The notes beneath the pieces are model-generated. The model was not told the origin of the DNA and made no database searches. It saw nothing but the letters and a program-made list of their open reading frames with translations. This document shows positions 5,111 through 56,548 of a stretch of 64,000 nucleotides of DNA, piece by piece. The stretch comes from Actinopolymorpha alba DSM 45243. Its GTDB lineage: Bacteria > Actinomycetota > Actinomycetes > Propionibacteriales > Actinopolymorphaceae. Each line of letters starts with the position of its first letter. The first letter of the stretch is position 1. Location of the stretch: the NCBI RefSeq assembly GCF_000373925.1, contig NZ_KB892779.1:26398-90397 (forward strand). The letters run 5' to 3'. Made by a program: the position numbers and the translations under genes.

Positions 5111-6060
5111 AGCGAGCCATCCGACCCGCCCATCGACGCGGTTCCTGTCCTTGACTTCAGCCACATCCTCGAGACCATCCGGCGCACCGAGGTGAATGTC
5201 GAGAACTTCCGACCGGGGGTGATGGCGCGCATCGGGCTCGGCTACGGCTCGGCGCCCAAGACTAACCTCCGTATCGTCTATGTGAGCGCGACGGGCTACG
5301 GCACCGAAGGGCCGTGGCGTGACCGGCCAGGCGAAGACCTGCCGGCGCAGGCCGTCTCGCGTTTGCCTTGGCTCAACGGCTCGCGTGGCGACGGGCCCGT
5401 GCCGGTTGGACTGTCGATCACGGCCACCCCATGAGCTGCCACATCGCCCAGGGCGTGACCGCGCTGCTCGTCAGTCGATTCCGCACAGGCGAGGCCAACC
5501 TTGCGGAGGCAGGCCCGTTGGAGGCGATGCTCGACCTGCAGTTCGGACTGCTGAGCAGGCGGCTGAATGACCCTCGATCAGGGTCGAACGGCACGGGCTC
5601 ACTCAGCGCACGCCATCCCGGCCGCGCCGTATGGCACCCACCCCACATCCGACGGCTACCTCCCCATCGCGATGAACCCGTCGACCGGATTGCCGACCTG
5701 CTGGGGATCTGGGAACTGTCCCGGTTCACAGATCCTGACTCGTTGTGGACGCAGCGGGATGACATCGACCGCATCCTTGCAGGCCATCTCGCCTCGCAGT
5801 CACGCGCTCATTTGCCCCGGACCCTCGACGCGGCAGACATTTGGTCCGCATCGGTCCTGGATCTCGAAGAGCTGCAGAGCCACAAGGGGTTCGCTGCCAT
5901 TGACACGTTACAGACGATCCGTCGCGTCAAGGAACCCCGTGCACGTGAGGTGCGCACCTTGCAGGAGCCGGTGCAGCTGGATGACGCGCTGCTGTGGGCG
6001 ACGGGTGCCGCACCCCGGCTCGGCGAGCTCACACGCTGCTACGCGCCGATTTCGACCGAG
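5111..6060 (+). pseudogene. CaiB/BaiF family III CoA-transferase, frameshifted remnant
   Basis: Three frames together give most of a family III CoA-transferase (formyl-CoA transferase or CaiB type). First frame: VENFRPGVMARIGLGYG, RIVYVSATGYGTEGPW, and WLNGSRGDGPVPVGLSI. Second frame: CHIAQGVTALLVSRFRTG, LEAMLDLQFGLLS, then DPDSLWTQRDDIDRIL and VLDLEELQSHKGFAAID. The N-terminal portion with the catalytic-Asp region is mostly deleted (DFSHIL joins directly to the VENFRPG block). At least two frameshifts and a deletion make it non-functional. It ends just before the ribosome site of the giant gene. Confidence 0.75.
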
Positions 6061-6122
6061 CCCCGACGCTGGAGGACACGGGCGCCACGCTTCGTTCCGA
6101 TCACATCCAGGAGGCGTCCTCA

Positions 6123-34344: not shown

Positions 34345-35382
34345 ATGCCCGCCACGACCCCCGAGACGACCTCTGTTGACGTCGTCGACATGCACCAGGC
34401 GGCGCCGCCGGCGCCGATCACAGCCGAGGCGGACGCGGTCCTCACGGAGCTGACCGGGGCGTGGCTGGCCACCAAACGCTCCGATCACACCCGCGCGGCG
34501 TACTGGCGAGACCTGCGCTCCTGGCTCACCTGGTGCACGATGCACCACGTCGACCGTGACGTCGTCCCGCACCCCGGCCCACAGCTGGACCCGCTCACCG
34601 CACGGGTGCGAGACGCCGAGCTGTGGGGAGCCTGGCTCGTCGACGAGCACCAGGGCGGGCTCAGTGATGCCAGCGCCGCGCGCCGGATGGCGGCGGTTTC
34701 GTCTTGGTATGCGTACCTGGTAAAGCACGAGGCGGTCTCGGCCAACCCGTTCGCGGGTGCGGACCGGCCAAGCGTCGACCGGAACCATTCCGCCACCACC
34801 TGGCTGAGCGAGACCGACGCCCGCCGCCTGGTCGAGGCCGCCGACACCGCGCCAGGCTCGGCGCGACTGCGTAACGCCGCCATGACCCGGCTCATGGTCG
34901 AACTCGGCATCCGCGTCTCCGAAGTCGTCGCGCTGCCGGTCACCGCACTTGGCCACCAAGGCGGACACCGCGTCATCCGGGTACGAGGCAAAGGGCGCAA
35001 GACGATCGACCGGCTGCTCCCGGCGGCGGTGGCGGCTGGACTGGACGCCTACCTCGCCGAACGCGCCGAAACCGAGGGCGAGGACGCCGTCCTCGAGGGA
35101 CCGCTGTTCGTCACCTCGACGCGCCGGCCGGTCGACCGGGTAGACGTCGCACGCCTCGTCCGCCGCCTCGCCCACGCCGCGGGCATCCCCAACGCCGACC
35201 GGGTCTCCCCGCACTCGCTCCGCCACACCTTCGCCACCATCGCCAAACAGCGCGGCGCCACCTCAGACGAGCTGCAAGAAGCCATGGCCCACGCCGACCG
35301 GCGCACCACCGACCGCTACATCCGCGCCGCCATGCGGCTCGAACGCGACCCATCCCAACTCGTCGCCGCCGCCCTCGGATGA
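34345..35382 (+). CDS. Tyrosine recombinase, XerC/D-like
   Basis: 345 residues, complete. N-terminal core-binding domain: TRAAYWRDLRSWLTWCTMHH, and SAARRMAAVSSWYAYLVKHE. Catalytic domain: first Arg in VELGIRVSEVVAL; RVRGKGRKTIDRLLP (beta-hairpin Lys region); HSLRHTFATIAKQRG (HxxR); EAMAHADRRTTDRYIRAAM with the nucleophile Tyr. All key residues are present, so it should be active. It differs from the two AICE-type integrases in the window and has no Xis beside it. It may serve resolution of a circular form or be a second, stacked element's integrase. Confidence 0.9.
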   Translation: MPATTPETTSVDVVDMHQAAPPAPITAEADAVLTELTGAWLATKRSDHTRAAYWRDLRSWLTWCTMHHVDRDVVPHPGPQLDPLTARVRDAELWGAWLVDEHQGGLSDASAARRMAAVSSWYAYLVKHEAVSANPFAGADRPSVDRNHSATTWLSETDARRLVEAADTAPGSARLRNAAMTRLMVELGIRVSEVVALPVTALGHQGGHRVIRVRGKGRKTIDRLLPAAVAAGLDAYLAERAETEGEDAVLEGPLFVTSTRRPVDRVDVARLVRRLAHAAGIPNADRVSPHSLRHTFATIAKQRGATSDELQEAMAHADRRTTDRYIRAAMRLERDPSQLVAAALG

Positions 35383-35508: not shown

Positions 35509-36087
35509 CTACCGCTGAACGAGAACCGAGGCCACGTAGCTAACCGCCACCCAAACCGCGGCCACGGCTCCGATCCATGGAAGGCCTAGCTCGATGCGTC
35601 GCCGTGAGTGGGCGAGTGGTTGGTACTCGTTGCGCCTTCTGATCTCCGCGCGTAGGGAGTCAATCAGCTCCTCCTCGCGTGACCTGCCTCGCCACTCCGC
35701 CATCATGGATGGCGAGTACGCGGACACTTTCACCGACCGATCTGTCGCAGCAATCACCAGGTGGCCGTCGTCCATGCGTGCGGACGCCAACGCCGGCCAC
35801 GGGATCCGGTACGTGAACACCGGATTCCGGATAGTGACGCCGTCGTCGCCCACGCGCACCGACGAATGGCCAGTGACGCGCCAGGCAAACCACAGCGCAG
35901 GTATGACGACGACGGCAAGGCCTAGCCTTTCAAGGAAGGCATCCGCAACAGGCCCTTTGACCATCCACCCAACCGAGAAGGCGATGGCATACGCCCATAG
36001 GATGATCCCGAAGATCATGGTTCCGGTCCGGCGGTAGGTCCGGGTCGCGGCGTCGCTTGGGGTGCGGGTTACCTCCAATTGGACCAT
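35509..36087 (-). CDS. Small PH-like membrane protein, possible RHS immunity partner
   Basis: 192 residues from ATG 36087, which has GGAGG directly before it; ATG 36018 is an alternative. Two hydrophobic helices near the start (FGIILWAYAIAFSVGWMV; LAVVVIPALWFAWRV), a beta-rich bacterial PH-like middle (VRVGDDGVTIRNPVFTYRIP, LVIAATDRSVKVSAYSP), and a last membrane helix (LPWIGAVAAVWVAVSYVASV). The start lies inside the end of the RHS gene (19 bp overlap), so the two are co-transcribed. A small membrane protein overlapping the tip end of an RHS toxin is the usual position of its immunity gene; that role is inferred from position alone. Confidence 0.65.
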   Translation of the reverse strand: MVQLEVTRTPSDAATRTYRRTGTMIFGIILWAYAIAFSVGWMVKGPVADAFLERLGLAVVVIPALWFAWRVTGHSSVRVGDDGVTIRNPVFTYRIPWPALASARMDDGHLVIAATDRSVKVSAYSPSMMAEWRGRSREEELIDSLRAEIRRRNEYQPLAHSRRRIELGLPWIGAVAAVWVAVSYVASVLVQR

Positions 36088-39000
36088 CCTCCGATGGCGT
36101 AGCTGCCGACCGCGTTGTACCCCATGTCCCTGCCTGTCCAGCGCCAGTTGACCTTGCTGTACCTTCTCACGCGGCCAAGTGAGTGTTTCGCTTTGCTGCT
36201 GTGTCGCCCGACCCGGGCCTTCCATTTGATCCGGTGGATCGCGCTGCGCCCCCAGGATCCGCCCATGGTGCGCCCGTAGGCGCCTCCCAGGGCTGTCCAC
36301 GCCAGGTTACCTGCCAGCGTTCGCCAGGCCCGCCGGCTCTTTATCGACTTATCCTCTATCGAGTCGCCGATGAAGTACCCAACGGATAGAATCGCACCGG
36401 CTCCCAGGCAAGCCCCGGCGGACGCCACGACACAGATCCCAAATGCGGCCCCGGCTGCGACCTTGCGCCAGCCGCCTCCTCTGAACTTCCTCCAGGCCCG
36501 CTTCCAGCTGATTTTGCCGTCGAGGTCGTAGCAGTTGATGGGGTCGGCGTTGCAGTATTCGTAGGCGTTGGCTGAGCCGCCGGGTACGGGGTCTGTTTGG
36601 AGGAAGCGTCCGAGTTGGGCGTTGTAGAGGCGGACGCCCATGAGGACCAGGCCGCCGAGGGTTTCGCTGCTGCGTTGTTTGCCGCCGAGCCAGCCGTAGC
36701 GGCCGGGGGTGTTGGTGCCGATGGGGACACCGAATTCGTCGGTCGCGTAGCTGTCGGCCGCGGCGGGTGGGCCTCCGGTGGTGTTGTCGGCGGTGGCTGT
36801 GACGTCGCCGTGCAGATTGACGGTCTGCCAGACGAGTTTCCCAGCCTGATTAACTGTCGCGGCCAGCGTGCCGGCCAGGTCGGTGATGTTACGGGTCCAC
36901 TGAGCGTGGTCGCTGGTCTCACTGATCCAATCCGGGCTATCGGAGGAGGCGTCGTTGTAGTGGTTGGTCTTGGTGACCCCGGTTTTGGAGTTGCTGAACG
37001 CCCCCAGCCGGCCGGCGGCGTCGAGGGTGTAGGTGAGGGTGGCCCCGTCCTGAGCCATGGACCGCACCAGGTCGTTGGTGTAGTAGCCGATCGTGACGTT
37101 CCCGCTGCCCGAGGTGGTGTCCGCCGCGGGCAGGGTGGTAACCCTGCCGTAGGCGTCGTAGACCGTCCCGGTGTGGGTGCCTTCGGGCTTGAGCCGGTCC
37201 GCGGTGTCGTAGGTGTAGCTGGTGGCGGACTCGACCGCGATCGCCTGGCAGGTGCCGTCGGAGGCGGGGCCGTAGACGTTGCGGAGGGTGCGGTTGGAGT
37301 TCGCGTCGAACCGGTAGTTGCGGTGCAGACACCGGCCGGACCCGTTGTCCCTCGTCCAGGTGAGGCGGCCGAGGTTGTCGTAGGTGTAGGTCTGTTCCCG
37401 GTTCACGTTCGCACCTGTGGAGACCTGGGTGCGCCACTGACCGTGCACGTTCGGCCGGATGGTCTCTTCCAGCCAGGTCGCTTCCAGCATCTGCCGGCGG
37501 CTGGTCTGTTCACTGGCGGAGTCGAAGGTGAAGGTTTGGATGAGCCCGTTGGGCCAGGTCTGCTCGAGCAGCCTCCCATCAGGGTCATAGGCGCCGGCGA
37601 ACTTCCCGGTGATACCGGAGACGGTGATGGAGGTGACGAGGTCGCGGTTGTCGCCGTTCTCGTTGTAGGTGTTGGTGACGGTGCCTTTCGCGTCGGTCAC
37701 GGTGGCGACGCGGCCGGAGCTGTCGTAGCTGGTGGTGACGGTGTTCTTGGCGTCCCCGGATGCTTCGGCGGAGTCGGTGTAGCTGGTAACGCGGCCGAAG
37801 TCGTCGTAGCTGCTGGTCTGCTGGGCGGTGCCGCTGACCACCTGAGAAGTCAGGCCGGTGTCGGGGTCGTAGGAGGTGGTGGTGGCCGGCACCGCCGTAC
37901 CCACCCCGCCGGTGAGCTGGCTGGTCTTCACCCGGGTCGAGTAGCCGCCGTTGTCATACGTCGTGGTTGAGGTCCGTGTCCGGGAGGTACCGCCAGCGTC
38001 GATGACGGTTTCTTCGGTGATGGTGGTGCGGTTGAGGTAGTCGTACTCCTTGACCCGTTCGACTACCAGCTGCGGCAACCCAGCCGTGCCGGGGTTGAGG
38101 TTGGCGGGGCGGGTGAGGCAGGTCAGGTTCGCCCACGCCGGCTTGTTCCCACAGGCGGCGTCTTTGGAGTTCGCGCCGGCGGTGTAGTAGACGGTTTCGG
38201 TGGTACCAGGTCCGCCTCCGTTTGGTTCGGAGGGCATCCGCGACTCGATAACCAACCCGCTGTCGGCGTCGTAGCGGGTCGTCGTGACCGATGCGATCCC
38301 GCTCGGGTCGCTGGTTACTTTCATGGGTTTGCTGTACGTCCACCCTGTTGCGTCGGTGGTGGACAGGGCGTACTCGTTCTTGGTGGTGCGTTTGTCCTGC
38401 TCGTCGGTGGCGACCGCGGCGGAGGAGAGGCTGGCGGCGGTGTAGGTGGAGGTGACCAGATGCAGGGTGGGGCCGGCGGGGTGTCCGAGTTCGGTGCCGG
38501 TGTCGTAGTCGTTGTGGGTGTGCGCCCGGGCCATCACGACCCGCCCATCGGGGAGGGTGACCTCGCGGTAGGGGCCGAAGGTGTCGAGGAGGTCCTTGCC
38601 GTCCTTGGTGTAGATGTTGATGGTGGACACCATCAACATCCGCGCACCCGGGTCCGGGGCGGCGATACCCTTCCAGTCCGGGAGCCCTTCGGCCGCGAGT
38701 ACCTCGGCCCGGTTCGCCGCGGACAGTTCACGGACGACGTTGCCCCACTTGTCGTAGTCGACGGTGGTGAGCGCCCACCCACCCGCACCCGGACCCGTGC
38801 CGGCGTAGGAGGCGGTGTTGATGGTGCGCCCGTCGGTGTTCAGATACGTCAAGCTCGCCTTACGCAGATCAGTACGTGACGCTGCCTTGCCGGGCCCGAA
38901 CACGGCGGTCGCGGTGACCGGCACCTCCTTCTGCCCCCACTTGGCGACCTTGCCGGCGGTGGACAGGTCCGGCCGCCACTCCGGGTTCGCCCCGTCGGCT

Positions 39001-42000
39001 GCGCGGGGCACGTCGTACTCCACGGTGGTGGTTTCGGTGCCGCCACCGTTGCCGGCGTTGTGGGTGCGTTTGACGCTGGTGACCCGCCCGTACACGTCGT
39101 ACGCGACGACCCAGGCGGCCAGCCCAGCCGGCTTCTCGGTAGTCACCCGTCCTTGGGAGTCGTAGGTGTACGTGGTGGGCAGCACCGGACTCGCCGCATC
39201 GCACTTGACGGGCTGCGTGCCACCACCAGCACCCGATACGGTGCGCGGGTCCCACGTCTTCAGCAACTGACCGGTCCCGCCCACCCCGTCACCGGCGGAC
39301 CCCTCGTCGTAGGCGTAGCAGGCGACATCGACCTTCAACTCCGTGCCGGTGGCCGTGGTGGTGCGGAACGTCACCGCCGTGACGTGGCCGGCCGGGTTGT
39401 AGGTGAACGTCAACGCCTTACATCCCGCCACCCAGGTAGTGCAGCTGGCCACTCCGGGCGGCAACGGGGCGAGCATCTGGGAGATCCGGCCGTCGGCGTT
39501 GTAGGTGTAGGTGGTGTTCTGGTTCGAACCCGGCTGCACAACCTTGCCAACCTGGTAGGTGTGCGGGGCGGTCTCCGACGCTCCGCTGGTGTAGGTGGTG
39601 GCGGGCGTGAACACGGTGGCGTTGGCGTCCAGGTCGGCGACCTTGAACTCCGCCGGACCCCCGGCACCGCCGCCGGTCGGCGTCAACGTCAGTCCGCTGG
39701 GTGCGTCCTCCCCGGTCGGGGTGTAGGTGCCGTCGGTCTTCTTCGCGAATGTGGTCGCCACACCCTCGGAATCGGTGACCACCACCGACGCGCCTTGGTC
39801 GGTCAGGCCGGTCCAGTCCGCGCCCGCCTCATCGACCGGGAGGGAGCCGGTCCAGCCGGGCCCGAACATGCCTTCCTCGACCAGGCTGTTGTTGTCGTAG
39901 TAGACGGGCTTGTTCGACGCCGTGGACGGCCGGCCGTTGTAGAGGCGGATGAACGCCTCCGTCGTCCCCGCCGGCAACGTCGCCCGCAGCCGCAGCTCCT
40001 GCCAGGTGTCGGTCGCGTTCGGGGTGTTGGAACGCACCTCCACATACGAACCGGTGCCGACCCGGTAGTACAGGATCGCCCGCAACGCCCGCGGATAGCT
40101 CGCCGTCTCAATCCCGGTCACCGCCGGCACATAAATCTGCGTGGTGAAGTTGTAGGTCCGGCCCGGTTTCATCCCCAACCGCAGCGCGCCGGTGTTCCCA
40201 CCGATCGCCGCGTGGGTGTCCATGTCGGTGTCCGACGTACCCGACGGGGTGATCTTCAACGAGTTCGACCCGCTGTAGGCGGGCCAGGTCGCCGCCACCG
40301 TGGCGGCTCGGGTGACGAACCCGGTGGTGCCTTCTTCGACCTGCGCCTGGTTGGCGTCCAGCATTTGCGGCGCCCCGGCCGGGGTCTGTGCTGGTTTCAG
40401 CGTGTTGAACGTGCGCGCCACGGTCAGGTCGGAGCCATAGGAAGCCACTGACGCGTCGGTTTCGGAGATCGACATGTTCCCCGACAACAACGACACCGAC
40501 CCCGGCCCCATATCCTCTGTGGAGCCTGCCACGTCGGCCTTGTCCATCGTCGCGGTCACCGTGTCCGTCGTACACACATCGGCGCTGCCGGACTTGGAGA
40601 AACAAGCCCGCACCTGGGCGGTGCCCTCCACCCCGTAGATGGTGCGCGGCATGTTCCACTCCAACTCCGGAACATCCGCGGACGCGCCCGCACCGGTGGT
40701 CACCGCCACCGGCCACGACGGCGCCGGCTGCCCACCCTTGGTGACATGGTCGGCGGGGATGTCCCGCCACGCCGCCGACTCGCCCTGCCGGTACTGCCAC
40801 TTCACGCCGGTGAACCCGTTGCCCGCCTGCGCCGCCAGCCGCATAAACCGCTGTGTCCGGCCCGCGGCTTCGGGGCTGGTCACCCCCGGTGTCGTCCCGA
40901 ACTGGTAGGAGGCGACCGGGGACAGGTTGTTCGCGAAGTCCACCGCCCGCACATACAGCGTGTGCCAACCACCCCCAGGCGTCACCGTCACCGTTTTCGC
41001 CGCGCCGTTGGTAGTCGCGACCGACTCGGCTTCGGCGAAGCTCTCATCATCGGTCGCATACACGAACCTGGTCACCGCGGTCGAGGTCGACGAAAAGGTG
41101 AACGACGCGTTCGCGGTCGCCGTCCACGCATTCTTCGGGTGGGTGGAACTCGACACCGCCGGCGCGGGTGGGGCCTTCGGCGGCATCGCCTGGTAATAAC
41201 CCTGCACATCAATCAACAACCCCGACGCGGCCGAGGAATAGACGTTGATCCGCCCGCCGCTCCCCACCGCGAGGATCGCGGTGCCGGTCACGTTGTTGTC
41301 CGCCAGGTTGTAGGAGACCGCCTGTGCTGCCGGCTGCGGTTCACCGGCCGCCCAGGCGGTCATGATCCCGCGCGCCTTCGGTTGCACCGCTGTGATCGAC
41401 ACCGCCACCGACGTCACACCCGAGGCGGGCACCACCACATTCCCGGAGCTGTCCTTCGCACCGGCGACCTGGATCGCGCGGACCTCTCTGGCCGCCAGGT
41501 CCTTGGTGGAGGTGTAGATCCGGCGCGGGCTGATCGGCACATACAGATCCCGGCCATCCTGGGTGTTGTCCAGGTAGTAGCCCTCCACATCAATGAAGAT
41601 TCGCATCTGCCCGGAGTTGGCCCAGACGCTGATCTTTCCGCTGGTGCCGACCTTTACCTGCGCCAACGCTGAGGCAATCTGACCCGTTGAGGCCTGCAAT
41701 GTCGACACCCCCGGCCGGGTAGTGCCTGCGGGGAACGCCTGCAGTGAGGTGTTCGTGGTCGGGTCAACCACGGTGAGGTTCACCGCCACCGCCGACACCC
41801 CAGACGAAGGGACCCCACCCAGTCCCGTCACCTGGATGTCGCGGGTTTCCCCGCCGACCAGTGGGGTCTGCCCGGAATTGTTGGTGTCGTAGATCCGGCG
41901 CGGCGAGACAGCGACAAACGTGCCACCCGCGGTGGTCACCGTGTTATCGGTGAAATAGCCCTGAACATCCAACACGACGTTCAGCTGGCCCCAACGGTTA

Positions 42001-42521
42001 TAGACATCGATCTGCCCACCGGCGCCGACCTTCGCGATCACCGTGTTCGCTTCCATATGCCCCGCGGTAATCGACAACTGCGACACCGTCGGCCGCGCCT
42101 CACCCGAAGGCCACACCGCCAGCCACGAATTGTCACTGGCATCGGTTGCCGTGACCGACAACACCACCGCCGACACACCCGAAGTCGGCACCCCACCCAC
42201 ACCCAGGACGGTGAACGACCGCGATTCGGCCTCACCGAGGGGCGCCTTCGTGCCGCCCTGGCCGCTGCGGGTATCAACAATCCGCGCCGGCTGCAACGGC
42301 ACATACTCACCACCCGCCGGCGGCGTCGACGCGGCCGCAGCCCGTTTCGGCTTCCCCGGATCGGGTGGGGCCGCCGACGCCACCGCCGCGCCCTCCGGCG
42401 GGATCGCCAACGCCCACGCCACCAACAACGCCGCCGCCATCACCAGGACGCGACGTGCCAACGGGAACCGGAGCCTAGATGTGAACCAGACGTTGCGAGC
42501 AGACCGAGCCGACACAGCCAT
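36069..42521 (-). CDS. RHS/YD-repeat polymorphic toxin-like protein
   Basis: 2150 residues from ATG 42521 (G-rich site upstream; GTG 42533 is also possible). A signal sequence (RRVLVMAAALLVAWALAIP) is followed by three repeats of about 125 residues with PARIVDTRSGQG...GVGGVPTSGVSAVVLSVT...LDVQGYF, a wall or surface type repeat. Then come Ig-like and carbohydrate-module-like parts, a long array of YD repeats (YDxxGRVT...), and the conserved RHS core end RYGWLGGKQRSSETLGGLVL, RLYNAQLGRFLQTDPVPGGS, AYEYCNADPINCYDLDGK. The last 148 residues form a variable tip: two hydrophobic glycine-rich helices (AGAAFGICVVASAGACLGAG), then a very basic Trp/Arg/Lys-rich end. The tip matches no toxin I know. Confidence 0.88.
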   Translation of the reverse strand: MAVSARSARNVWFTSRLRFPLARRVLVMAAALLVAWALAIPPEGAAVASAAPPDPGKPKRAAAASTPPAGGEYVPLQPARIVDTRSGQGGTKAPLGEAESRSFTVLGVGGVPTSGVSAVVLSVTATDASDNSWLAVWPSGEARPTVSQLSITAGHMEANTVIAKVGAGGQIDVYNRWGQLNVVLDVQGYFTDNTVTTAGGTFVAVSPRRIYDTNNSGQTPLVGGETRDIQVTGLGGVPSSGVSAVAVNLTVVDPTTNTSLQAFPAGTTRPGVSTLQASTGQIASALAQVKVGTSGKISVWANSGQMRIFIDVEGYYLDNTQDGRDLYVPISPRRIYTSTKDLAAREVRAIQVAGAKDSSGNVVVPASGVTSVAVSITAVQPKARGIMTAWAAGEPQPAAQAVSYNLADNNVTGTAILAVGSGGRINVYSSAASGLLIDVQGYYQAMPPKAPPAPAVSSSTHPKNAWTATANASFTFSSTSTAVTRFVYATDDESFAEAESVATTNGAAKTVTVTPGGGWHTLYVRAVDFANNLSPVASYQFGTTPGVTSPEAAGRTQRFMRLAAQAGNGFTGVKWQYRQGESAAWRDIPADHVTKGGQPAPSWPVAVTTGAGASADVPELEWNMPRTIYGVEGTAQVRACFSKSGSADVCTTDTVTATMDKADVAGSTEDMGPGSVSLLSGNMSISETDASVASYGSDLTVARTFNTLKPAQTPAGAPQMLDANQAQVEEGTTGFVTRAATVAATWPAYSGSNSLKITPSGTSDTDMDTHAAIGGNTGALRLGMKPGRTYNFTTQIYVPAVTGIETASYPRALRAILYYRVGTGSYVEVRSNTPNATDTWQELRLRATLPAGTTEAFIRLYNGRPSTASNKPVYYDNNSLVEEGMFGPGWTGSLPVDEAGADWTGLTDQGASVVVTDSEGVATTFAKKTDGTYTPTGEDAPSGLTLTPTGGGAGGPAEFKVADLDANATVFTPATTYTSGASETAPHTYQVGKVVQPGSNQNTTYTYNADGRISQMLAPLPPGVASCTTWVAGCKALTFTYNPAGHVTAVTFRTTTATGTELKVDVACYAYDEGSAGDGVGGTGQLLKTWDPRTVSGAGGGTQPVKCDAASPVLPTTYTYDSQGRVTTEKPAGLAAWVVAYDVYGRVTSVKRTHNAGNGGGTETTTVEYDVPRAADGANPEWRPDLSTAGKVAKWGQKEVPVTATAVFGPGKAASRTDLRKASLTYLNTDGRTINTASYAGTGPGAGGWALTTVDYDKWGNVVRELSAANRAEVLAAEGLPDWKGIAAPDPGARMLMVSTINIYTKDGKDLLDTFGPYREVTLPDGRVVMARAHTHNDYDTGTELGHPAGPTLHLVTSTYTAASLSSAAVATDEQDKRTTKNEYALSTTDATGWTYSKPMKVTSDPSGIASVTTTRYDADSGLVIESRMPSEPNGGGPGTTETVYYTAGANSKDAACGNKPAWANLTCLTRPANLNPGTAGLPQLVVERVKEYDYLNRTTITEETVIDAGGTSRTRTSTTTYDNGGYSTRVKTSQLTGGVGTAVPATTTSYDPDTGLTSQVVSGTAQQTSSYDDFGRVTSYTDSAEASGDAKNTVTTSYDSSGRVATVTDAKGTVTNTYNENGDNRDLVTSITVSGITGKFAGAYDPDGRLLEQTWPNGLIQTFTFDSASEQTSRRQMLEATWLEETIRPNVHGQWRTQVSTGANVNREQTYTYDNLGRLTWTRDNGSGRCLHRNYRFDANSNRTLRNVYGPASDGTCQAIAVESATSYTYDTADRLKPEGTHTGTVYDAYGRVTTLPAADTTSGSGNVTIGYYTNDLVRSMAQDGATLTYTLDAAGRLGAFSNSKTGVTKTNHYNDASSDSPDWISETSDHAQWTRNITDLAGTLAATVNQAGKLVWQTVNLHGDVTATADNTTGGPPAAADSYATDEFGVPIGTNTPGRYGWLGGKQRSSETLGGLVLMGVRLYNAQLGRFLQTDPVPGGSANAYEYCNADPINCYDLDGKISWKRAWRKFRGGGWRKVAAGAAFGICVVASAGACLGAGAILSVGYFIGDSIEDKSIKSRRAWRTLAGNLAWTALGGAYGRTMGGSWGRSAIHRIKWKARVGRHSSKAKHSLGRVRRYSKVNWRWTGRDMGYNAVGSYAIGGWSNWR

Positions 42522-43019
42522 CACGCCCCCCACCTGGAAGCCGACAGGTCCAAAAAGATCTACACGCCCCGGGCTCCCGCATCACGGAAATGACCAAAAA
42601 TGATCAACCACGAAAACTTCAAGAACGACGAAAACCTTCGCAACCCGCAGCTCAAACCGGAGGCTTCGTCAGGTAGTGCTTTTGTTTGAATTGCGCAGAT
42701 CATGTGAGATCGAAAGCAGGACAAGAGACCACGAATCCCGCCGGGGCTCTGGTCGCGGGTGGCCGCCAGTCGGCCTGATGGCCGTGCCCATCAGGTTGCC
42801 CGGACGTCCGCAAACGGCCGCTGCGGCGCCATCGCCGACCAAGGCCTAGGCCGCCGACGCTGATACCCATCGCTCCCAACGGGCTTTCGAGATCACCCTT
42901 CGACGAATACCGGCCGCGCTTGGGTCCGGCCGCCGGGCAGGGCATGCGATGCCGGCTATGCCCGACCCACAGCCTGGCAACTGGTCGCCGTTTCTCGGTT
43001 CGCTGGCATCCTGACCAGC
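42522..43019. other. Intergenic, nothing supported
   Basis: The first 150 bases are A-rich compared with the surroundings and probably hold the promoter of the RHS gene. The rest shows only random open frames. Confidence 0.35.
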
Positions 43020-49388: not shown

Positions 49389-51071
49389 TCAGCGTTCTGC
49401 GATCTCGTCCCACCGAGCTGAGGCGAGCCATTTGTCGATCTCACCTGCCTCAAGCGGGTTCGCATCGAGAAGGTAGGGCCAGTACTCGGAGATGGTTCGG
49501 GGCTTCGGCGAACCACCGAGCGTCGGCACCACTCGCGTGTAAGTGACAAGCGCTCCGTGCCGGGCACGAGAGAGCATCACTGACAGGGCTCTAGCCTCCT
49601 CGTCCTTGGCTGTTGGCGTAGTCGCCCGAAAATCCGGGATGCAGCCCTGTTCGAGTCCGACGACGATGACCCAGTCGAACTGCTGGCCCTTTCCGACGTG
49701 GCCACTGAGGAGGTGGATTCCAGGCGCATTCAGCAGGGTGGTCTGGTCGCCGACCCGGATTTTGGCGCGTACTTCGTCGAAGGTGTCTCCGTTGGCGAAG
49801 CGGTCGAGGACCCAATTGATTGCGTCAGCAAGAGCGCTCCGTGAGTCGAAGTCCTCTACTCTCTCGAGTTCTGCGAGCTGGCGTAGGTAGCCGAGCGTGT
49901 CGTCCGTGGACGCAAGTTCGGAGGGGTCGATGCGGGCGAGCATCGTTCGGACTCGTCGAGCGGTTTCTGGGTCGAGGACTCCATCTTCCCACCGGTGTAC
50001 GGGGTGGTCACTCGCTTCGACGACGGTGGCGATGAACCGGAGACGACTCTTGATCCGTACGATGACGCCGATTCGTTGACCGGGCGCCCTGGTGAGGACG
50101 TGGGCTGCGAATGCGAGCACATCCGCGGCTTCTTGCTTGACGTCAGTGAACCGAAGGATGCCGGCGAGTCCGCCTTGCGGCCAACTGCTGGGATCGGCGC
50201 AGGTGAGGTCGGTTCCGCCCGTGAGCTCGTTGAGGGAGTTCACCATCGCGAGGACAGCTGGCGATGACCGATGGGAATCGCTGAACTCGATGACGCTGGC
50301 GCATTCGGCACGGATTGCTGCGTCGATGTCCGACGGGGCAGCACCAGCGAATCCGTAGATGCCTTGGGCCAGGTCACCAGCGTAGGTGGTTCGACCGTAT
50401 GCGATGCGGTTGATCACACGCAGTTGCTGCGGAGTGAGGTCTTGATACTCGTCGACGATGACGGCGCCGAAGTGGTGTGCGTACAGGTCAGCGACGGCGT
50501 CGTTGGCCAGGATGAGTTCGGCGTACCGGAGCAGGTCGTCGTAAGTGGCGCGATTCTGCTTCGCGCGCAGGGCCTCGATGTCGATGGCGTGGTCGTTTCC
50601 ACATTCTCCGAGTGCTTCAGAGACTTCTTCGTCGGTGTGCGCTTCAAGCTTGGCGACCTGAAGCGCCTTCTCGACGTCCTTGATGTCGTCCCAGTCGAGC
50701 TTCCTGCTGTGGCACTGCTCGCGGACCCAGTCGTTCTCGCAGATGGTGATGTTGGGATTGATCCCTGCGACTGCGCCGTGGGCGCGGATGATTCGGGCGG
50801 CGAGGCCGTGGAAGTTGGTGACAGTGACGCGGTCGCGTTGTACGGAGAGCGGCACATAGCGCCGGAGCCGGGCGCGGATGTTGTCCTTGGCTCGGTGCGT
50901 GAAAGTGACGGCGAGGATGCGCTGGGGTGGAGGAGCGGAGCCTCGATCAATGAACCCCGCTACGCGAAGCGCGAGCGCTTCCGTCTTACCGCAGCCAGCG
51001 GGCGCGACCACAAGGAGCGAGAGGTTGTCGTGGTCACGTACCTCGGCTTGGGCCTTGGTGGGCGTGATCAC
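49389..51071 (-). CDS. gajB: UvrD-like helicase, GajB-type
   Basis: 560 residues from ATG 51071, overlapping the OLD gene stop by four bases (ATGA). Walker A APAGCGKT 23-30; motif Ia RILAVTFTHRAKDNIRARL; DEYQD Walker B 207-211 in FGAVIVDEYQDLTPQQLRVI; motif III TYAGDLAQGIYGFAGA; EFSDSHRSSPAVL; LLSGHVGKGQQFDWVIVVGL (motif V-like); SVMLSRARHGALVTYTR (motif VI). This is a complete superfamily I helicase. In Gabija the GajB helicase works with the GajA nuclease against phage; length (560) is somewhat above the usual GajB (about 500). Confidence 0.85.
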   Translation of the reverse strand: MITPTKAQAEVRDHDNLSLLVVAPAGCGKTEALALRVAGFIDRGSAPPPQRILAVTFTHRAKDNIRARLRRYVPLSVQRDRVTVTNFHGLAARIIRAHGAVAGINPNITICENDWVREQCHSRKLDWDDIKDVEKALQVAKLEAHTDEEVSEALGECGNDHAIDIEALRAKQNRATYDDLLRYAELILANDAVADLYAHHFGAVIVDEYQDLTPQQLRVINRIAYGRTTYAGDLAQGIYGFAGAAPSDIDAAIRAECASVIEFSDSHRSSPAVLAMVNSLNELTGGTDLTCADPSSWPQGGLAGILRFTDVKQEAADVLAFAAHVLTRAPGQRIGVIVRIKSRLRFIATVVEASDHPVHRWEDGVLDPETARRVRTMLARIDPSELASTDDTLGYLRQLAELERVEDFDSRSALADAINWVLDRFANGDTFDEVRAKIRVGDQTTLLNAPGIHLLSGHVGKGQQFDWVIVVGLEQGCIPDFRATTPTAKDEEARALSVMLSRARHGALVTYTRVVPTLGGSPKPRTISEYWPYLLDANPLEAGEIDKWLASARWDEIAER

Positions 51072-52687
51072 GGGTTCTCGATCTCGTCCAGGAGGTCGTT
51101 GACACTGACGATCCCGGCGGCGGTGTCCTTGTCGAGCACTTCGGCGATCGCCATCGCGGCCAGCACCTTATTGTTCCTGTGCCGGCAGAACTCGGCGACA
51201 TCGACGGCAGTGCGGGTGCCATCGGCGCCGGACTTGTTGCAGTTGTCGAGCGTGTTCTTCGAGAACAGCCCGGAGTTCTCGAGTGCGTCCCAGGCCTTCG
51301 CGGCGCCGAGCGCGTCGACGTACTCGCCTTCGAGGTCCGGGGCGGAGATAAAGCAGGGGTAGTCCTCGAGGTCTTCCAGGTCGTCGGGGGCGACCCCGAG
51401 CTTCTTCGCAGTCTTGTCGCGTGCGTCCTCGTCGATGAGGAGTGCGAGCGGGATGTCGAATCCAGTGGGTCCGAACAGCGTGACGATCGCGGGCATGTCG
51501 CCGGCGCCGTCGGTCTCGATGAGCGAGACGCCGAGCCGGTCGAGGTTGCGGCTGGTGAGGTCGGCGACCTTCTCGACGATGATCCGGTCCGAGACCCCTT
51601 CGACGGCGACGACTTGGTTGGCGGTGAGTGGCTCCAACTTATCCCGCACCCACCAGCGCACAACGAGCTTCTCGTCCGCGGTCAGGAACCCGGCGTTCGG
51701 TTGGACGAGCCCCCCGCCCGGTCGCACCGAGACAATGCACTCGGGCGAGAAGGCACTAACGATGTCGGGTGAGTGAGTGGCGAGGAACTTCTGGTTCGGG
51801 CCGGCCTGCAGCAGTCGCGCGAGGCTGCGCTGGCTGGTTGGGTGGAGGTGGATCTCGGGTTCGTCGACGGCGACCATGTTCCGGCCAGCGCTGACGAGGT
51901 CATACATGGCGAGCGCGTACAGGGCTCGGATGCCGTCGGACTGTTCGGAAATGTGCTTGGTCTTGCCGTCCTTGACCACGTTCAGACGGACGTCGGCAAG
52001 GACGTCGCCGTCGGCAAGAGCGCCCGTTGCGAAGGTGAGCTCGTCGTTATTGACCTCGACCGGAAGCGCCTTCGACAGCTGCCTAGCCAAGTCCTCGCGG
52101 AGCTTCCCAAGCGTCTTCGACAGTTGCAGCCGTTCCTCAATCTTGTCGATCAGCTTCTTGAAGTCGTCCTTCTCAGTGCCCAGGTCGACGAGCTTGAGGA
52201 TCTCGTCGAGAGGCGTGCGCCGGCCCGCACGCAAATCGCGAGCCATCGCGGTGGCCCCCAATAGGTTCCAGCCGAGCGCTTCGACCTGCTTGACCGAGAG
52301 CTGGCGCCCGGTGCCGGCCGTTGCTGCTCGCCGGTCGACCGAGAGGGTGCGGTTGGTGTCAAACGTGGCCTCGAGTGAGATGGTGAGGGTCAGCTCGTTG
52401 GTTTCCGGGTCGACCGTGAGCTCGTCGGGGAACAGCACCTTGTCGCTCGCGACAAACCCCTTCAGGTCCCCCTCGATGGCGAGGGGAACGGTGGGGTCAG
52501 CCAGGTCCTCATAGGCGATCCGGTTGTACAGTTGGGCGGTACTTGCACCGAGGAGCAGGTCGATGCACCGCAGAAGCAAGGACTTACCGACGTCGTTCGG
52601 ACCGACCAGAACGAGGTGCTCGCGCACCTCGAGCTCCTTGTCTGAAAGACGGCTGTGGTTGCGGATCGCGAGCCGGGTGAGTCGCAT
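51068..52687 (-). CDS. gajA: OLD-family ATPase/TOPRIM nuclease, GajA-type
   Basis: 539 residues from ATG 52687. ATPase part: LTRLAIRNHSRLSDKELEVR, Walker A GPNDVGKS 29-36, a long helical insert 155-205, EQSDGIRALYALAMYDL, Walker B MVAVDEPEIHLHP 271-283, FLATHSPDIVSAF. TOPRIM part: VVAVEGVSDRIIVEKV with E363, and LALLIDEDARD with D419 and D421, the metal-binding residues of OLD nucleases. The coupling to a UvrD helicase downstream gives the Gabija arrangement. GajA acts as a site-specific DNA nickase held back by nucleotides and released when phage growth drains them (known for the family). Confidence 0.87.
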   Translation of the reverse strand: MRLTRLAIRNHSRLSDKELEVREHLVLVGPNDVGKSLLLRCIDLLLGASTAQLYNRIAYEDLADPTVPLAIEGDLKGFVASDKVLFPDELTVDPETNELTLTISLEATFDTNRTLSVDRRAATAGTGRQLSVKQVEALGWNLLGATAMARDLRAGRRTPLDEILKLVDLGTEKDDFKKLIDKIEERLQLSKTLGKLREDLARQLSKALPVEVNNDELTFATGALADGDVLADVRLNVVKDGKTKHISEQSDGIRALYALAMYDLVSAGRNMVAVDEPEIHLHPTSQRSLARLLQAGPNQKFLATHSPDIVSAFSPECIVSVRPGGGLVQPNAGFLTADEKLVVRWWVRDKLEPLTANQVVAVEGVSDRIIVEKVADLTSRNLDRLGVSLIETDGAGDMPAIVTLFGPTGFDIPLALLIDEDARDKTAKKLGVAPDDLEDLEDYPCFISAPDLEGEYVDALGAAKAWDALENSGLFSKNTLDNCNKSGADGTRTAVDVAEFCRHRNNKVLAAMAIAEVLDKDTAAGIVSVNDLLDEIENP

Positions 52688-52972: not shown

Positions 52973-54673
52973 TCAGGGCTCCAACGGCTTGGATCTGCGA
53001 TATGCGATCGAGCGGTCCCTTGTCTGGAACAGGTGGTACGTAGTCCCACTGAACTCATGGGGACCCCCGTAGTTGGGATCTCTGAGGATGATCTCGACAC
53101 GGCCAAGGTCAACGCGCTGCGGTCCAACCTCAACAACCAGAGGGGCCGACAGGCTGAACGTGCCCTCAGGAAGCGGGACGCCCGCCTCGAACTCGACGAG
53201 CAAGCCGTGCCCTTCTGGGTAGGACGTGGCCAACTCCTCGCCGCTGAGCACCCTGGCCGCGTCCGCCCAGCCGCGCCGCTGGGCGGACGTCACTGCCCCG
53301 AGGTCCGGAGTCCTGATCACTGTGGCTGTGTGCGCCTGCAAGCTGCACAGGATCTCGATGAGGTGCGCTGTGGATGCGAGAGCCTCCCCCACAGCTCCAT
53401 CCCAAACGAAACCGATATTCGGATCCGTGATTCCCATCTCCGCTGGGACGTGGCGGGAACTGACGCGGAGAACATTCGGGGCCTGGCATTGGCCCAGGAA
53501 ATGGAGACCCGTCTTCACTGCCCCAACGGGCTTTCCTGTGAAGTCGCCGAAGGCGATCGTGCGCCGACCACTGTTCTCGACCAGGTTGTGCCGATCCTCG
53601 ATGGTGAACACACCGTTCGTCTCCGCGAGGACGGCCCTGACCCCGCCGGTCCCCTGGCTACGTTCGACCCGGTCGACGTTGACCGTGGCAAGCACGAGCC
53701 CTGCCGGATCAAGTACCTCGAGGCGAAGCTCCGGGTCTTCGCCGAGGTCAGCCGAGTGTGGCCAAGTCGAGAGAGTGGCCTCTTCGAGCTTGCCTCCAAG
53801 GCCGCCCGGGGCATCGAACGTGGCGGTATAGGCCCGTTCCGGGCTGCGGAACGGCGCCCCGTAGGTTAGGGAGTCCAGGAACTCCTTCTCTGCTGTACTA
53901 CCTCGCTCCAACTTCAGGTGCCCGTGCACAGCGATGGGCCGCTCTTCTGTCGAGGCGGCGCAGCGCGCAATGATGTCGACAACACTCCACCGTCCAGTGG
54001 ACCGGTTGCCGGCGAGCATGGACATGACCAGGCCTTGCCGGCTGGAGTACGCCGGCGGCGTTCCTTCACCGAACCGGTGTTCGTAGCGGTAGTGCGGGTC
54101 GTCATCCAGCGTGAGCAGCGCCTTGTCGACCCGCTTGACCACCTCTAAGGCGTCGAGTCCGCCCTCGGTCCGGTCGGCTCCAAAATACGCCGCAAGTCGC
54201 TCGTACGCTTCCTTGATCCGGCCCCGGTTCCCGTTCAAGTAGTAATCGACAACGTCTCCGTACTTGGCCGCGAGTTGTTCGACGTACTCCAGGCCACGCC
54301 AAATTGCCGTGACACCTTTGCCCGTAGCCACGTCGTAGAGCCAGTTTTCAGCCTCGGGAGACGGGTTCATGGGCGTGACAAGGTGCCACTCCCGAACGTC
54401 AAGCCGCGCCCACCGCGGGTCTTCCATGAGTCGGGAAAGAGAATCCTCGATCTCAGCCTTCTGCCTGGCGCTGAGACGGTCGTCCGTGTAGCGCTTCACC
54501 TGGTAGACGACATCCGTCCCGTCCGGACCTCCCCGCGGATCGAGGATGTCTACTCCCCCATCGCCCTTCGACGGCGTGATCCGGTGAGAGTTCGGGTGCT
54601 CCCGGTTGATGAACATCGCGACAACGGCCTCGACGGGGCCTCCGGCGAGACGAGTCCATTCGATGAGCGTCAT
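52973..54673 (-). CDS. Protein with N-terminal Mrr-like restriction nuclease domain
   Basis: 566 residues from ATG 54673. The start MTLIEWTRLAGGPVEAVVAM, then PSKGDGGVDILDPRGG and TDVVYQVKRYTDD gives E15, D42 and Q58-x-K60, the (E)-D-QxK motif of Mrr-type PD-(D/E)xK nucleases. Residues 75-160 continue the domain (WHLVTPMNPSPEAENWLYDV). The other 400 residues have no known family: a helical part (VDYYLNGNRGRIKEAYERLA) and then a beta-rich region with repeated strands (LRLEVLDPAGLVLATVNVDR), which may recognise a target. It stands 58 bases after the XRE/ImmA gene in the same direction and looks like the effector of that unit. Confidence 0.8.
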   Translation of the reverse strand: MTLIEWTRLAGGPVEAVVAMFINREHPNSHRITPSKGDGGVDILDPRGGPDGTDVVYQVKRYTDDRLSARQKAEIEDSLSRLMEDPRWARLDVREWHLVTPMNPSPEAENWLYDVATGKGVTAIWRGLEYVEQLAAKYGDVVDYYLNGNRGRIKEAYERLAAYFGADRTEGGLDALEVVKRVDKALLTLDDDPHYRYEHRFGEGTPPAYSSRQGLVMSMLAGNRSTGRWSVVDIIARCAASTEERPIAVHGHLKLERGSTAEKEFLDSLTYGAPFRSPERAYTATFDAPGGLGGKLEEATLSTWPHSADLGEDPELRLEVLDPAGLVLATVNVDRVERSQGTGGVRAVLAETNGVFTIEDRHNLVENSGRRTIAFGDFTGKPVGAVKTGLHFLGQCQAPNVLRVSSRHVPAEMGITDPNIGFVWDGAVGEALASTAHLIEILCSLQAHTATVIRTPDLGAVTSAQRRGWADAARVLSGEELATSYPEGHGLLVEFEAGVPLPEGTFSLSAPLVVEVGPQRVDLGRVEIILRDPNYGGPHEFSGTTYHLFQTRDRSIAYRRSKPLEP

Positions 54674-54731: not shown

Positions 54732-55838
54732 TCATCGCACCACTGTCAGCTTCGGCCGAACGTCGTCAAGGCCGAGGAGCTCCCTGATACGCCGCGGCGG
54801 CAGGTGGAGCTCGCTGGCAATGTCCACGAGGGTGATACCTGCCTCCACATCGCACAGCTCCACAGCCTGCCGCAGCAACGTCGGCATCTCCCCCGGATAT
54901 GCCGTGAGCGGCTCAAGGCTCCTCACGCCCTTCAGCATCGCAAGTCGCTGATAGGCGCGTCGCAGCGTGGTCTCGGGCGTCTGCCGGACCTCACGCATCC
55001 GAAGAAGCAGCGACTCAATCGATACTCCCCACGTTCGGCTGAGGCGGTCCAATTCGGTGAGATCGACACGGCGGGGCAGGATCGCAGCCAAATCGCTGGC
55101 GGGTGTGAGAAGCGCGGCGGCGAACTGGTCGGCCTCGAGCTCCTGCACCGCATCCCCCGGCTTCGGCTCCTGATGTAGCAGCAAGTGCCCGAGCTCGTGC
55201 GCGACTGTGAACCTGTGCCGGTACACCTCCATCGACCTACGCGGGGTCGACATCACGATGGGCCGGCCGTCGATGTCGCTGGAGAAGGCATCTACCCGCT
55301 CCATCCCGCCCTGCTTGGACACGAGTACGACGACGCCGTAGCTTTCCATGGTCGCGACCAGGTGCGGCAGCGGACCATCAGGAATATGCCAGTGATTCCG
55401 GAGTTGCTGGGCTGCCTGCGCCGGCGAAGCCCCCAGCTCAATCACTGGCAGGTCGACCGTCGGGAACTCCACGTACCGTTCGAATACGTGTGTGAGCTCG
55501 CGGATCTGCTCCGCGGTAGACAAGGCTCGATCTCTATCCCCTGCCCGCAACGAGCGCAGGCTTCGGAAATGCACGTTGCCGGTGTCCACACGGAAGAACG
55601 GTCGGCCTGTAACGAAGAACGTCACATCCACGCCCAGTGCGTTGGCCAGTGCTGTCAAGTGCTCGGGCCTCGGCTTGGCAACCCCGGATTCGTACTGCCC
55701 TATCGCTGCGGCGGACACCCCCACCCTCTGAGCCAGTTCGTTCTTCTTCAGCTGCGCCAACGTGCGGGCCTGCCTTAGGCGGTCGCGGTCAAACGCATCG
55801 CTGACCGCCTGGAGAGAAACTTCCTTGCGCATACTCAT
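54732..55838 (-). CDS. XRE helix-turn-helix and ImmA/IrrE-type metallopeptidase fusion
   Basis: 368 residues from ATG 55838, which overlaps the preceding stop (ATGA). Residues 20-75 are an XRE helix-turn-helix: LRQARTLAQLKKNELAQRVG, SAAAIGQYESGVAKPRPEHL. The ImmA/IrrE (M78) peptidase has FTVAHELGHLLLHQE with HELGH at 214-218 and a downstream ELEADQFAAALL, the third zinc ligand. After residue 260 comes a helical tail (LPRRVDLTELDRLSRTWGVS). Such proteins cleave a repressor or sense a signal and switch on nearby genes. Here it is placed between an unknown protein and a nuclease, which suggests the role of control switch for the unit. Confidence 0.9.
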   Translation of the reverse strand: MSMRKEVSLQAVSDAFDRDRLRQARTLAQLKKNELAQRVGVSAAAIGQYESGVAKPRPEHLTALANALGVDVTFFVTGRPFFRVDTGNVHFRSLRSLRAGDRDRALSTAEQIRELTHVFERYVEFPTVDLPVIELGASPAQAAQQLRNHWHIPDGPLPHLVATMESYGVVVLVSKQGGMERVDAFSSDIDGRPIVMSTPRRSMEVYRHRFTVAHELGHLLLHQEPKPGDAVQELEADQFAAALLTPASDLAAILPRRVDLTELDRLSRTWGVSIESLLLRMREVRQTPETTLRRAYQRLAMLKGVRSLEPLTAYPGEMPTLLRQAVELCDVEAGITLVDIASELHLPPRRIRELLGLDDVRPKLTVVR

Positions 55839-56548
55839 TTGTCACTGGTGCCTGTATCACGCTTCTTGACGATGGGCTGTGGGGCCGGGCCTGATGCAAA
55901 GGTGCGCTCGTCCGAGCCGGACTTGGTCTTGGCCGACGTATCGGCCGGCGTCTTTACGGCGAGATCGTCTCCGAGGAACATCACCTCGGGGTCGATGAAC
56001 CGCACCGTGCTGTCGCTCTGAGGCTCAATCACGCCCCACGTGATCCTCCACAGCCGACTCGCATCCGACTCCACGGCCACCATGACGACGCGGAGATGGT
56101 GATCGGCAGCGAACTCGACCACCTCGTTCAGCTCCACCTGGGGCTCGTCGTCGCTCTCGGCCGGGTCGATGTCGTCCAGGTCCAGCATCGCTTGCGGGTC
56201 GGGCTTCAAGGTGAACAGGTCGGCGCGGGATGGGCTCGTGATGAACGGAGTGACTGCTGGGTCTCCCCCGTGTGGTGGCCGCCAGGGGAAGATCACACTG
56301 TCCTGCAGTACCGGCAGGTGATAAGCAGCACGCCCAGGCTGCACCGTTACGGCGTTCATCCAGTTCCTCTGGAGGGTGTTGGTGCAGACTGTGGGCAGAG
56401 CCCGCCAAAGCTGTCCGTAGACGCTCTGGCCGTCCTGTCCGGACACCCGCTGAGCCTCGACATGCTTCATATGTGCCGTGACGATAGCGTCGACCAGCTG
56501 GGACTTGACCAGCTCAGTGTCATCACCGAACAGCCCGTTCGATTGCAT
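55835..56548 (-). CDS. Unknown 237-residue protein opening the nuclease operon
   Basis: 237 residues from ATG 56548. First 60 residues helical (VKSQLVDAIVTAHMKHVEAQ, QLWRALPTVCTNTLQRNWMN); then a beta-rich middle (PVLQDSVIFPWRPPHGGDPA); an acidic stretch (MLDLDDIDPAESDDEPQVEL); strands LRVVMVAVESDASRLWRITW; and a polar, probably disordered tail. No family recognised. The four-base overlap with the XRE/ImmA gene shows joint translation. It may be the peptidase's substrate or the sensor of the system (inference from position). Confidence 0.75.
   Translation of the reverse strand: MQSNGLFGDDTELVKSQLVDAIVTAHMKHVEAQRVSGQDGQSVYGQLWRALPTVCTNTLQRNWMNAVTVQPGRAAYHLPVLQDSVIFPWRPPHGGDPAVTPFITSPSRADLFTLKPDPQAMLDLDDIDPAESDDEPQVELNEVVEFAADHHLRVVMVAVESDASRLWRITWGVIEPQSDSTVRFIDPEVMFLGDDLAVKTPADTSAKTKSGSDERTFASGPAPQPIVKKRDTGTSDK

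Follow-up and report, generated by a model that had tools for sequence, protein, structure and literature searches.

The RHS tips described so far are mostly enzymes, countered by soluble inhibitors; few are known to act on membranes, and those are mostly from Gram-negative bacteria. WapA is a surface-displayed RHS-type protein of Gram-positive bacteria. Here, we describe an RHS gene of the soil actinobacterium Actinopolymorpha alba DSM 45243 and the gene directly downstream of it, which encodes a membrane protein with a bacterial PH (bPH) domain. Both lie on a 64,000-nucleotide stretch of contig NZ_KB892779.1 (hereafter the window, to which all positions refer), from an actinobacterial assembly of 8.0 Mb. 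Judging from sequence, the C-terminal tip of the RHS protein and its bPH partner apparently represent a real RHS C-terminal tip (RHS-CT)/immunity family of Actinomycetes, with a membrane-located candidate immunity protein, that is undescribed in the profile libraries we searched.

The closest described systems come from several scaffolds. Tse5 of P. aeruginosa is a pore-forming Rhs toxin and an effector of a type VI secretion system (T6SS) (PMC10684867, PMC9637101). The ionophore toxins of contact-dependent growth inhibition (CDI) are countered by hydrophobic, highly polymorphic CdiI immunity proteins with ~30% identity within groups (PMC11630599). EsxX, TspA and TelE are Gram-positive glycine-zipper LXG toxins with membrane-depolarizing C-terminal tips (PMC12744356). 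Tox-WTIP, a family found in proteobacteria only, is defined by W-[ST]IP and RxxR signatures (Zhang et al. 2012; PMC3482391). On the immunity side, SunI is the sublancin immunity protein (PMC6391423), after which the Pfam bPH_8 model is named, and leaderless-bacteriocin clusters, including those of Actinomycetota, often contain PH-domain genes, for which a role in immunity and transport has been discussed (PMC11580447). We found no earlier description of bPH or PH-domain proteins as RHS or polymorphic-toxin immunity proteins in the open-access full-text literature.

The RHS gene is an open reading frame of 2154 residues with a GTG start at 36069 to 42533 on the reverse strand, as are all features of the pair given below. 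Its product contains RHS/YD repeats that terminate in an RHS-associated core (TIGR03696, Rhs_assc_core, E = 4e-12; also TIGR01643 and PF05593). The end of this core (36516 to 36683, residues 1951 to 2006) runs through the motif DPINCYDLDG at residues 1997 to 2006, after which exactly 148 residues remain, as an earlier note made from this DNA alone had counted. These residues (36072 to 36515) form the variable tip beyond the conserved core boundary. The same note had placed the edges of the region at 35509 and 42521. The left edge is correct; 42521 is an in-frame ATG four codons after the GTG start at 42533. The N terminus of the protein (42369 to 42521) is likely a Sec-type signal peptide, judged by eye from the translation, with a basic region, the segment RRVLVMAAALLVAWALAI and an Ala-rich cleavage region.

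Tips of this family recur together with bPH membrane genes in other Actinomycetes. Using the window tip with a 10-residue core anchor, we found four other loci in 392 genomes of the order. The closest relative is in Kribbella albertanoniae (genome G069, contig C444, NZ_SMKA01000004.1), of the same order, in which the tip and partner are also adjacent. This tip is 33% identical to the window tip over its whole length and 40% identical over the best local match; the bPH membrane gene begins four bases past the RHS stop codon, and its product is 27% identical to the window partner. The tip was absent from the seven other genomes of the family. A tblastn search of the genome contigs with the window tip gave no match, and a profile built from just two tips (window and Kribbella) recovered Kribbella alone there. 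When the two-tip profile was searched in 395 genomes of the class, 13 further loci were detected. Twelve of these have a bPH membrane gene directly downstream (genomes G559, G575, G713, G739, G706, G597, G534, G637, G427 and G474, and two loci in G691). At the remaining locus, in G515, the tip is decayed and we could detect no partner. Frameshifts or stops within the tip also occur in G713, G706 and G427, and the tail of one tip (L059) is only ~30 residues long. We also observed a transposase gene, of DDE type by appearance, directly before the tip of locus L061 (G474, contig C14), where it apparently severs the tip from the RHS core; the bPH partner there is intact.

The pairing is specific to the tip. 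We used 110 RHS core ends, collected by a TIGR03696 search independent of the tip, as a base rate. A bPH partner lies downstream of 2 of these 110 unselected C termini, compared with 12 of 13 tips found by profile (Fisher test, P = 8e-14). One of the two (L071) was detected by a partner profile that was itself made from RHS-linked partners (E = 9e-11), and the other (L152) by inspection. Just two unselected tips match the tip profile. These are L071, the locus with the profile-detected bPH partner, and L169, which has an 84-residue membrane protein where the bPH partner would stand. The independent Pfam bPH_6 model recognizes 9 of 13 partners (E < 0.1), and others are weakly recognized by bPH_10 and bPH_8 (the latter with one weak match, E = 0.008). 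Partners in relatives are 12 to 24% identical to the window partner. Among 72,556 plasmids, the window tip had one match, the RHS gene of Streptomyces sp. NBC_01527, which is followed by a gene for an annotated 'PH domain-containing protein' (WP_331762551.1); no match was found in the phage records searched. The earlier note had proposed looking for pairs of tip and membrane gene in other genomes, and such pairs do exist. Its reading of the two genes as a toxin/immunity pair is strongly supported by this recurrence, by the independent plasmid locus and by tandem cassettes.

The tip and partner also behave as a unit that is separable from the core. RHS genes from another genus of the family (L194 and L219) have cores with 72 to 73% DNA identity to the window core. 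For L194 (72.7%), the match stops at query base 888, with the core ending at base 885, and a different tip and a different partner follow. Tip and partner gene have nearly the same G+C content at third codon positions (GC3; 0.77 and 0.76, respectively), lower than that of the core (0.87 to 0.89), as would be expected had they been acquired together. Genome G691 carries a tandem arrangement in which two tip/bPH units (L058 and L062), separated by 2.3 kb, each have a core of their own, and core remnants are found downstream of the partner in L050 and L057. The abrupt core boundary, the GC3 shift and the tandem units are, at the level of sequence, marks of RHS-CT/immunity cassettes.

Within the tip, we found one strong hydrophobic segment, at residues ~17 to 50 (best 19-residue Kyte-Doolittle mean, 2.07). 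It coincides with a predicted hairpin (36354 to 36467), identified by hydropathy and alignment, that carries the motif G-x-C-x5-G-x-C (G26, C28, G34 and C36). These four residues are invariant in 11 aligned tips, and A33, G40 and G77 are nearly so. A second region (residues ~61 to 90) is Gly/Ala-rich and weakly hydrophobic (best mean, 0.36); a low-confidence model places a Gly-rich helix with G77xxxG81xxxG85xxxG89 at 36210 to 36335. Thus, of the two hydrophobic helices in the earlier note, the first holds and the second is Gly/Ala-rich as described but weak. The strongly basic tail that it reported is borne out: the tip has 29 Lys/Arg versus 4 Asp/Glu, and its final 58 residues (36072 to 36245), which include Trp, have a net charge of +13. 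No acidic residue or His is conserved in the 11 aligned tips, and none of these tips has a match in Pfam, NCBIfam or PADLOC; no homology to a characterized pore-forming tip was found in these libraries. Together, these two results make a conserved enzyme less likely and favor a structural element that inserts into the membrane. One strong membrane-spanning hairpin segment without a conserved polar catalytic residue is also what pore-forming and ionophore tips display. The tip is most likely a membrane-acting toxin, and the membrane action that the earlier note suggested is plausible. The note would have taken a match to a known non-membrane toxin as evidence to the contrary; no such match was found in these three collections, and this check came out in favor of the note. 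A Prion_octapep match of the tip in Pfam fell below the curated cut-off and was discarded.

The partner gene (35509 to 36087) encodes a protein of 192 residues. Its best start is the ATG at 36087 (alternatively, the TTG at 36078), so that it begins inside the 3' end of the RHS gene, as the earlier note had stated, and overlaps it by ~19 bases at the RHS stop codon. The note's description of the product as a PH-like membrane protein is also confirmed, by a match to PF10756 (bPH_6; E = 8e-8, 32.6 bits, where the Pfam gathering cut-off is 22) and by three transmembrane (TM) segments. Two of these are N-terminal (TM1, 35962 to 36021; TM2, 35872 to 35949) and are followed by the PH-like beta region (35722 to 35862, with PF10756 covering residues 76 to 116) and a C-terminal segment (TM3, 35515 to 35580). 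The TM segments were assigned by hydropathy and correspond to helices 23-42, 47-72 and 170-191 in a low-confidence model, which also has six strands in the PH-like region. Partners in relatives have two to three or more TM segments; a membrane-located candidate immunity protein is a further trait that the pair shares with pore-forming and ionophore tips. By the positive-inside rule, the PH region is predicted to be cytoplasmic. The window partner did not match the SunI-like bPH_8 model, and its E1-E2_ATPase and ATP-synt_I matches in Pfam were discarded because they fell below curated cut-offs.

Two further observations concern the partner gene. A tyrosine recombinase gene (34345 to 35382, forward strand; Phage_integrase, E = 6e-27) is convergent with the partner gene and lies 127 bases from its stop; it may mark how the RHS/immunity region moved. 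Elsewhere in the same genome (contig C75; L014, 1185 to 1723), a second copy of the partner gene is present as an orphan fragment of its C-terminal part, with 88% DNA identity over 201 bases. This fragment is joined in inverted orientation to a bPH_6 paralogue, the N-terminal part of which it seems to have replaced, and the junction seems to be a recombination scar.

Other RHS tips share the hairpin of the window tip and end in a different basic tail (L016/L205, L194, L208, L221 and L169). Their apparent partners are membrane proteins of 82 to 96 residues. The partners of L187 and L189 have three to four TM segments. Thus, the tips most closely related to that of the window have membrane proteins as partners, if not all of one class. 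The sister tips L194, L205, L208, L221 and L169, with their small membrane proteins, are a candidate second toxin/immunity family. Separately, we noticed that cores ending in '..DPVxxxDLDG' (L195-L202, L220, L143, L144, L156 and L157) often carry very basic tips of 73 to 136 residues. These are rich in Lys, Arg and Trp, have charges of +20 to +28 where computed and lack an obvious hydrophobic segment. Among them, a group from the Kribbella clade, 'KWPCWSKKC..AAAKK', recurs nearly unchanged.

Overall, we consider it reasonably probable, if well short of certain, that the RHS protein is a contact-type interbacterial toxin with a membrane-inserting tip and that the downstream bPH protein is its cognate immunity protein. 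The RHS protein would be exported via Sec and displayed on the cell surface, and what is known of the family suggests that its tip would be delivered by contact to a neighboring cell, as for WapA. The C-terminal 148 residues would serve as the toxin cassette. The Cys-flanked hairpin and the Gly-rich helix would insert into the cytoplasmic membrane of the target, the basic, Trp-containing tail would grip the anionic membrane or cross it, and the target membrane would be depolarized. In the producer, the bPH protein would reside in the membrane, its PH domain facing the cytoplasm, and block insertion or oligomerization of the tip. We infer every step beyond a cassette with a membrane partner, namely toxicity, membrane target, immunity function, topology and delivery.

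Several results weigh against this reading. Glycine zippers in the tips are not above composition expectation when compared with shuffled sequences, and the amphipathic moment of the tip tail is not unusual relative to shuffles. AlphaFold models from two-sequence alignments are too poor to support a fold for either protein (mean pLDDT, the predicted local distance difference test score, of 48 for the tip and 51 for the partner). The tip helices H4-31, H33-52 and H61-102 and the partner order TM-TM-six strands-helix-TM are therefore suggestive at most. Because the groups seen among tips and among partners mirror host taxonomy, the fact that the two diverge in parallel adds no independent evidence, and we did not use it as proof of co-evolution. 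We also rejected the general rule that a hydrophobic tip predicts a membrane partner, which failed over the unselected RHS genes (P = 0.5). Finally, in L017 and L149 a similar hydrophobic segment, also containing Cys, stands before a tip that looks enzyme-like and has a soluble partner.

Given this last result, the toxic part could be the tail, with the hairpin serving for entry. In that case, the hairpin would be a shared pre-toxin module, the basic tail would act in the cytoplasm or at the inner leaflet, by binding nucleic acids or attacking an inner-membrane protein, and the bPH protein would catch the tail as it emerges, which would suit a PH domain placed on the cytoplasmic side. The class of partner does track the tail, with bPH proteins beside the window type and small multi-TM proteins beside the L016/L194/L208/L221 type, and the hairpin is common to both. 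There is also a precedent in the DNase Tde1, whose translocation is served by a glycine zipper (PMC10240207). Conversely, the tail has no conserved catalytic residue and no match in the profile libraries, and it shrinks to ~30 residues in L059. Moreover, immunity proteins against cytoplasmic enzymes are usually soluble, whereas the closest tips here are paired with membrane proteins. We regard a toxic tail behind an entry module as possible but unlikely.

The bPH protein might instead help to export or anchor the RHS protein, similar to the PH-domain proteins DdE and DdF that are required for export of enterocin DD14 (PMC8657885, PMC13262744). This would sit well with the wide distribution of bPH_6 proteins: 39 of the 392 genomes from the order have them, and almost all of these proteins are encoded away from RHS genes. 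The earlier note had held that wide occurrence of the small gene without RHS genes would count against an immunity role. Such occurrence is found for the bPH_6 superfamily as a whole only; RHS-linked members cluster in the tree (5 label changes versus about 11 in shuffles, with 0 of 500 shuffles as low). A single origin of the RHS-linked proteins was not supported, because they form no single clade, and bPH recruitment may thus have happened more than once. As for a helper role, the RHS protein has a Sec-type signal peptide of its own, predicted by eye, and a bPH neighbor is rare among RHS genes in general. The bPH gene also goes with the tip rather than the core, given that in L194, where the core is 72.7% identical but the tip is another, the partner differs as well. 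We consider such a helper improbable. Least probable is that the tip is a non-toxic membrane anchor or stalk of a surface RHS protein, stabilized by the bPH protein. A hydrophobic hairpin with basic flanks is compatible with an anchor, but the boundary at which polymorphism sets in is abrupt, the partner is specific to the tip, tip and partner share a foreign codon usage, and core, tip and partner occur as tandem cassettes, all of which are marks of RHS-CT/immunity systems.

Elsewhere in the window, a complete Gabija-type pair is encoded on the reverse strand at 49389 to 52687. It comprises a GajB UvrD helicase (49389 to 51071; PADLOC, E = 1e-213) and a GajA OLD-family ATPase (51068 to 52687; E = 2e-219), which overlap by four bases. 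Close to it, also on the reverse strand, a gene at 54732 to 55838 encodes a protein with a helix-turn-helix and an IrrE-like peptidase, matching RmrA in PADLOC (E = 4e-84) and adjoined by genes for two unannotated proteins (52973 to 54673 and 55835 to 56548). The Gabija pair and the RmrA-like gene form a small defense island about 7 to 14 kb from the RHS gene. A very large exported protein of about 2400 residues is encoded on the forward strand at 5994 to 13298; it has LamG domains, CBM9, a GH42-like beta-galactosidase stretch and Ig/cadherin-like domains.

Our findings define a recurrent, actinobacteria-wide family of RHS tips whose membrane partner carries a bacterial PH domain. They suggest a candidate function for some, at least, of the bPH_6 proteins, a very large family that is mostly uncharacterized, and would link polymorphic-toxin immunity with bacteriocin immunity. 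More tentatively, and with some doubt on our part, the pair could belong to an undescribed actinobacterial superfamily of Cys-flanked-hairpin membrane toxins on RHS proteins, and the bPH fold of membrane proteins could be one that confers immunity to membrane-acting proteins in general, in RHS toxin systems as in bacteriocin systems (SunI and the leaderless-bacteriocin clusters). If so, orphan bPH_6 genes of actinobacteria might include stand-alone immunity genes.

Compared with the described systems, the locus combines familiar parts in an unfamiliar way. Like Tse5, it has an RHS protein with a ~16 kDa C-terminal tip, predicted to be membrane-active and non-enzymatic, and an adjacent, predicted immunity gene. 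Tse5 is, however, a Gram-negative T6SS effector, whereas here we have an actinomycete, an RHS protein bearing a signal peptide and a bPH-type partner; this comparison is one of architecture and not a direct comparison with the Tse5 sequence. Tox-WTIP is also a small and hydrophobic tip, classed as non-catalytic; it has two predicted membrane helices and is found on polymorphic toxins, among them some with RHS repeats. It is restricted to proteobacteria, whereas the window tip is actinobacterial; the signatures Wx[ST]IP and RxxR were not evident by eye in the tip alignment, and there was no Pfam match. The CDI ionophores resemble the pair in their variable C-terminal tips, which here are predicted to act on membranes, and in their polymorphic hydrophobic partners, which matches the low identities of partners here to the window partner. 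They differ in having CdiA as scaffold, an ionophore domain of five helices and immunity proteins that lack a PH domain, and in their Gram-negative hosts. EsxX, TspA and TelE are also C-terminally tipped toxins of Gram-positive bacteria that depolarize membranes, as is predicted here, and have in part membrane immunity (TsaI), but they use an LXG scaffold of the type VII secretion system and other immunity families (a DUF5085 pair, TsaI), and glycine zippers are not enriched in the tips here. Finally, SunI, DdE/DdF and aureocin A53-like clusters place PH-domain membrane proteins beside membrane-acting cationic peptides, and one partner here is weakly recognized by bPH_8. Those peptides are small and diffusible, whereas the tip described here would be displayed on the surface by an RHS protein, and 9 of the 13 partners match bPH_6 rather than bPH_2 or bPH_8.

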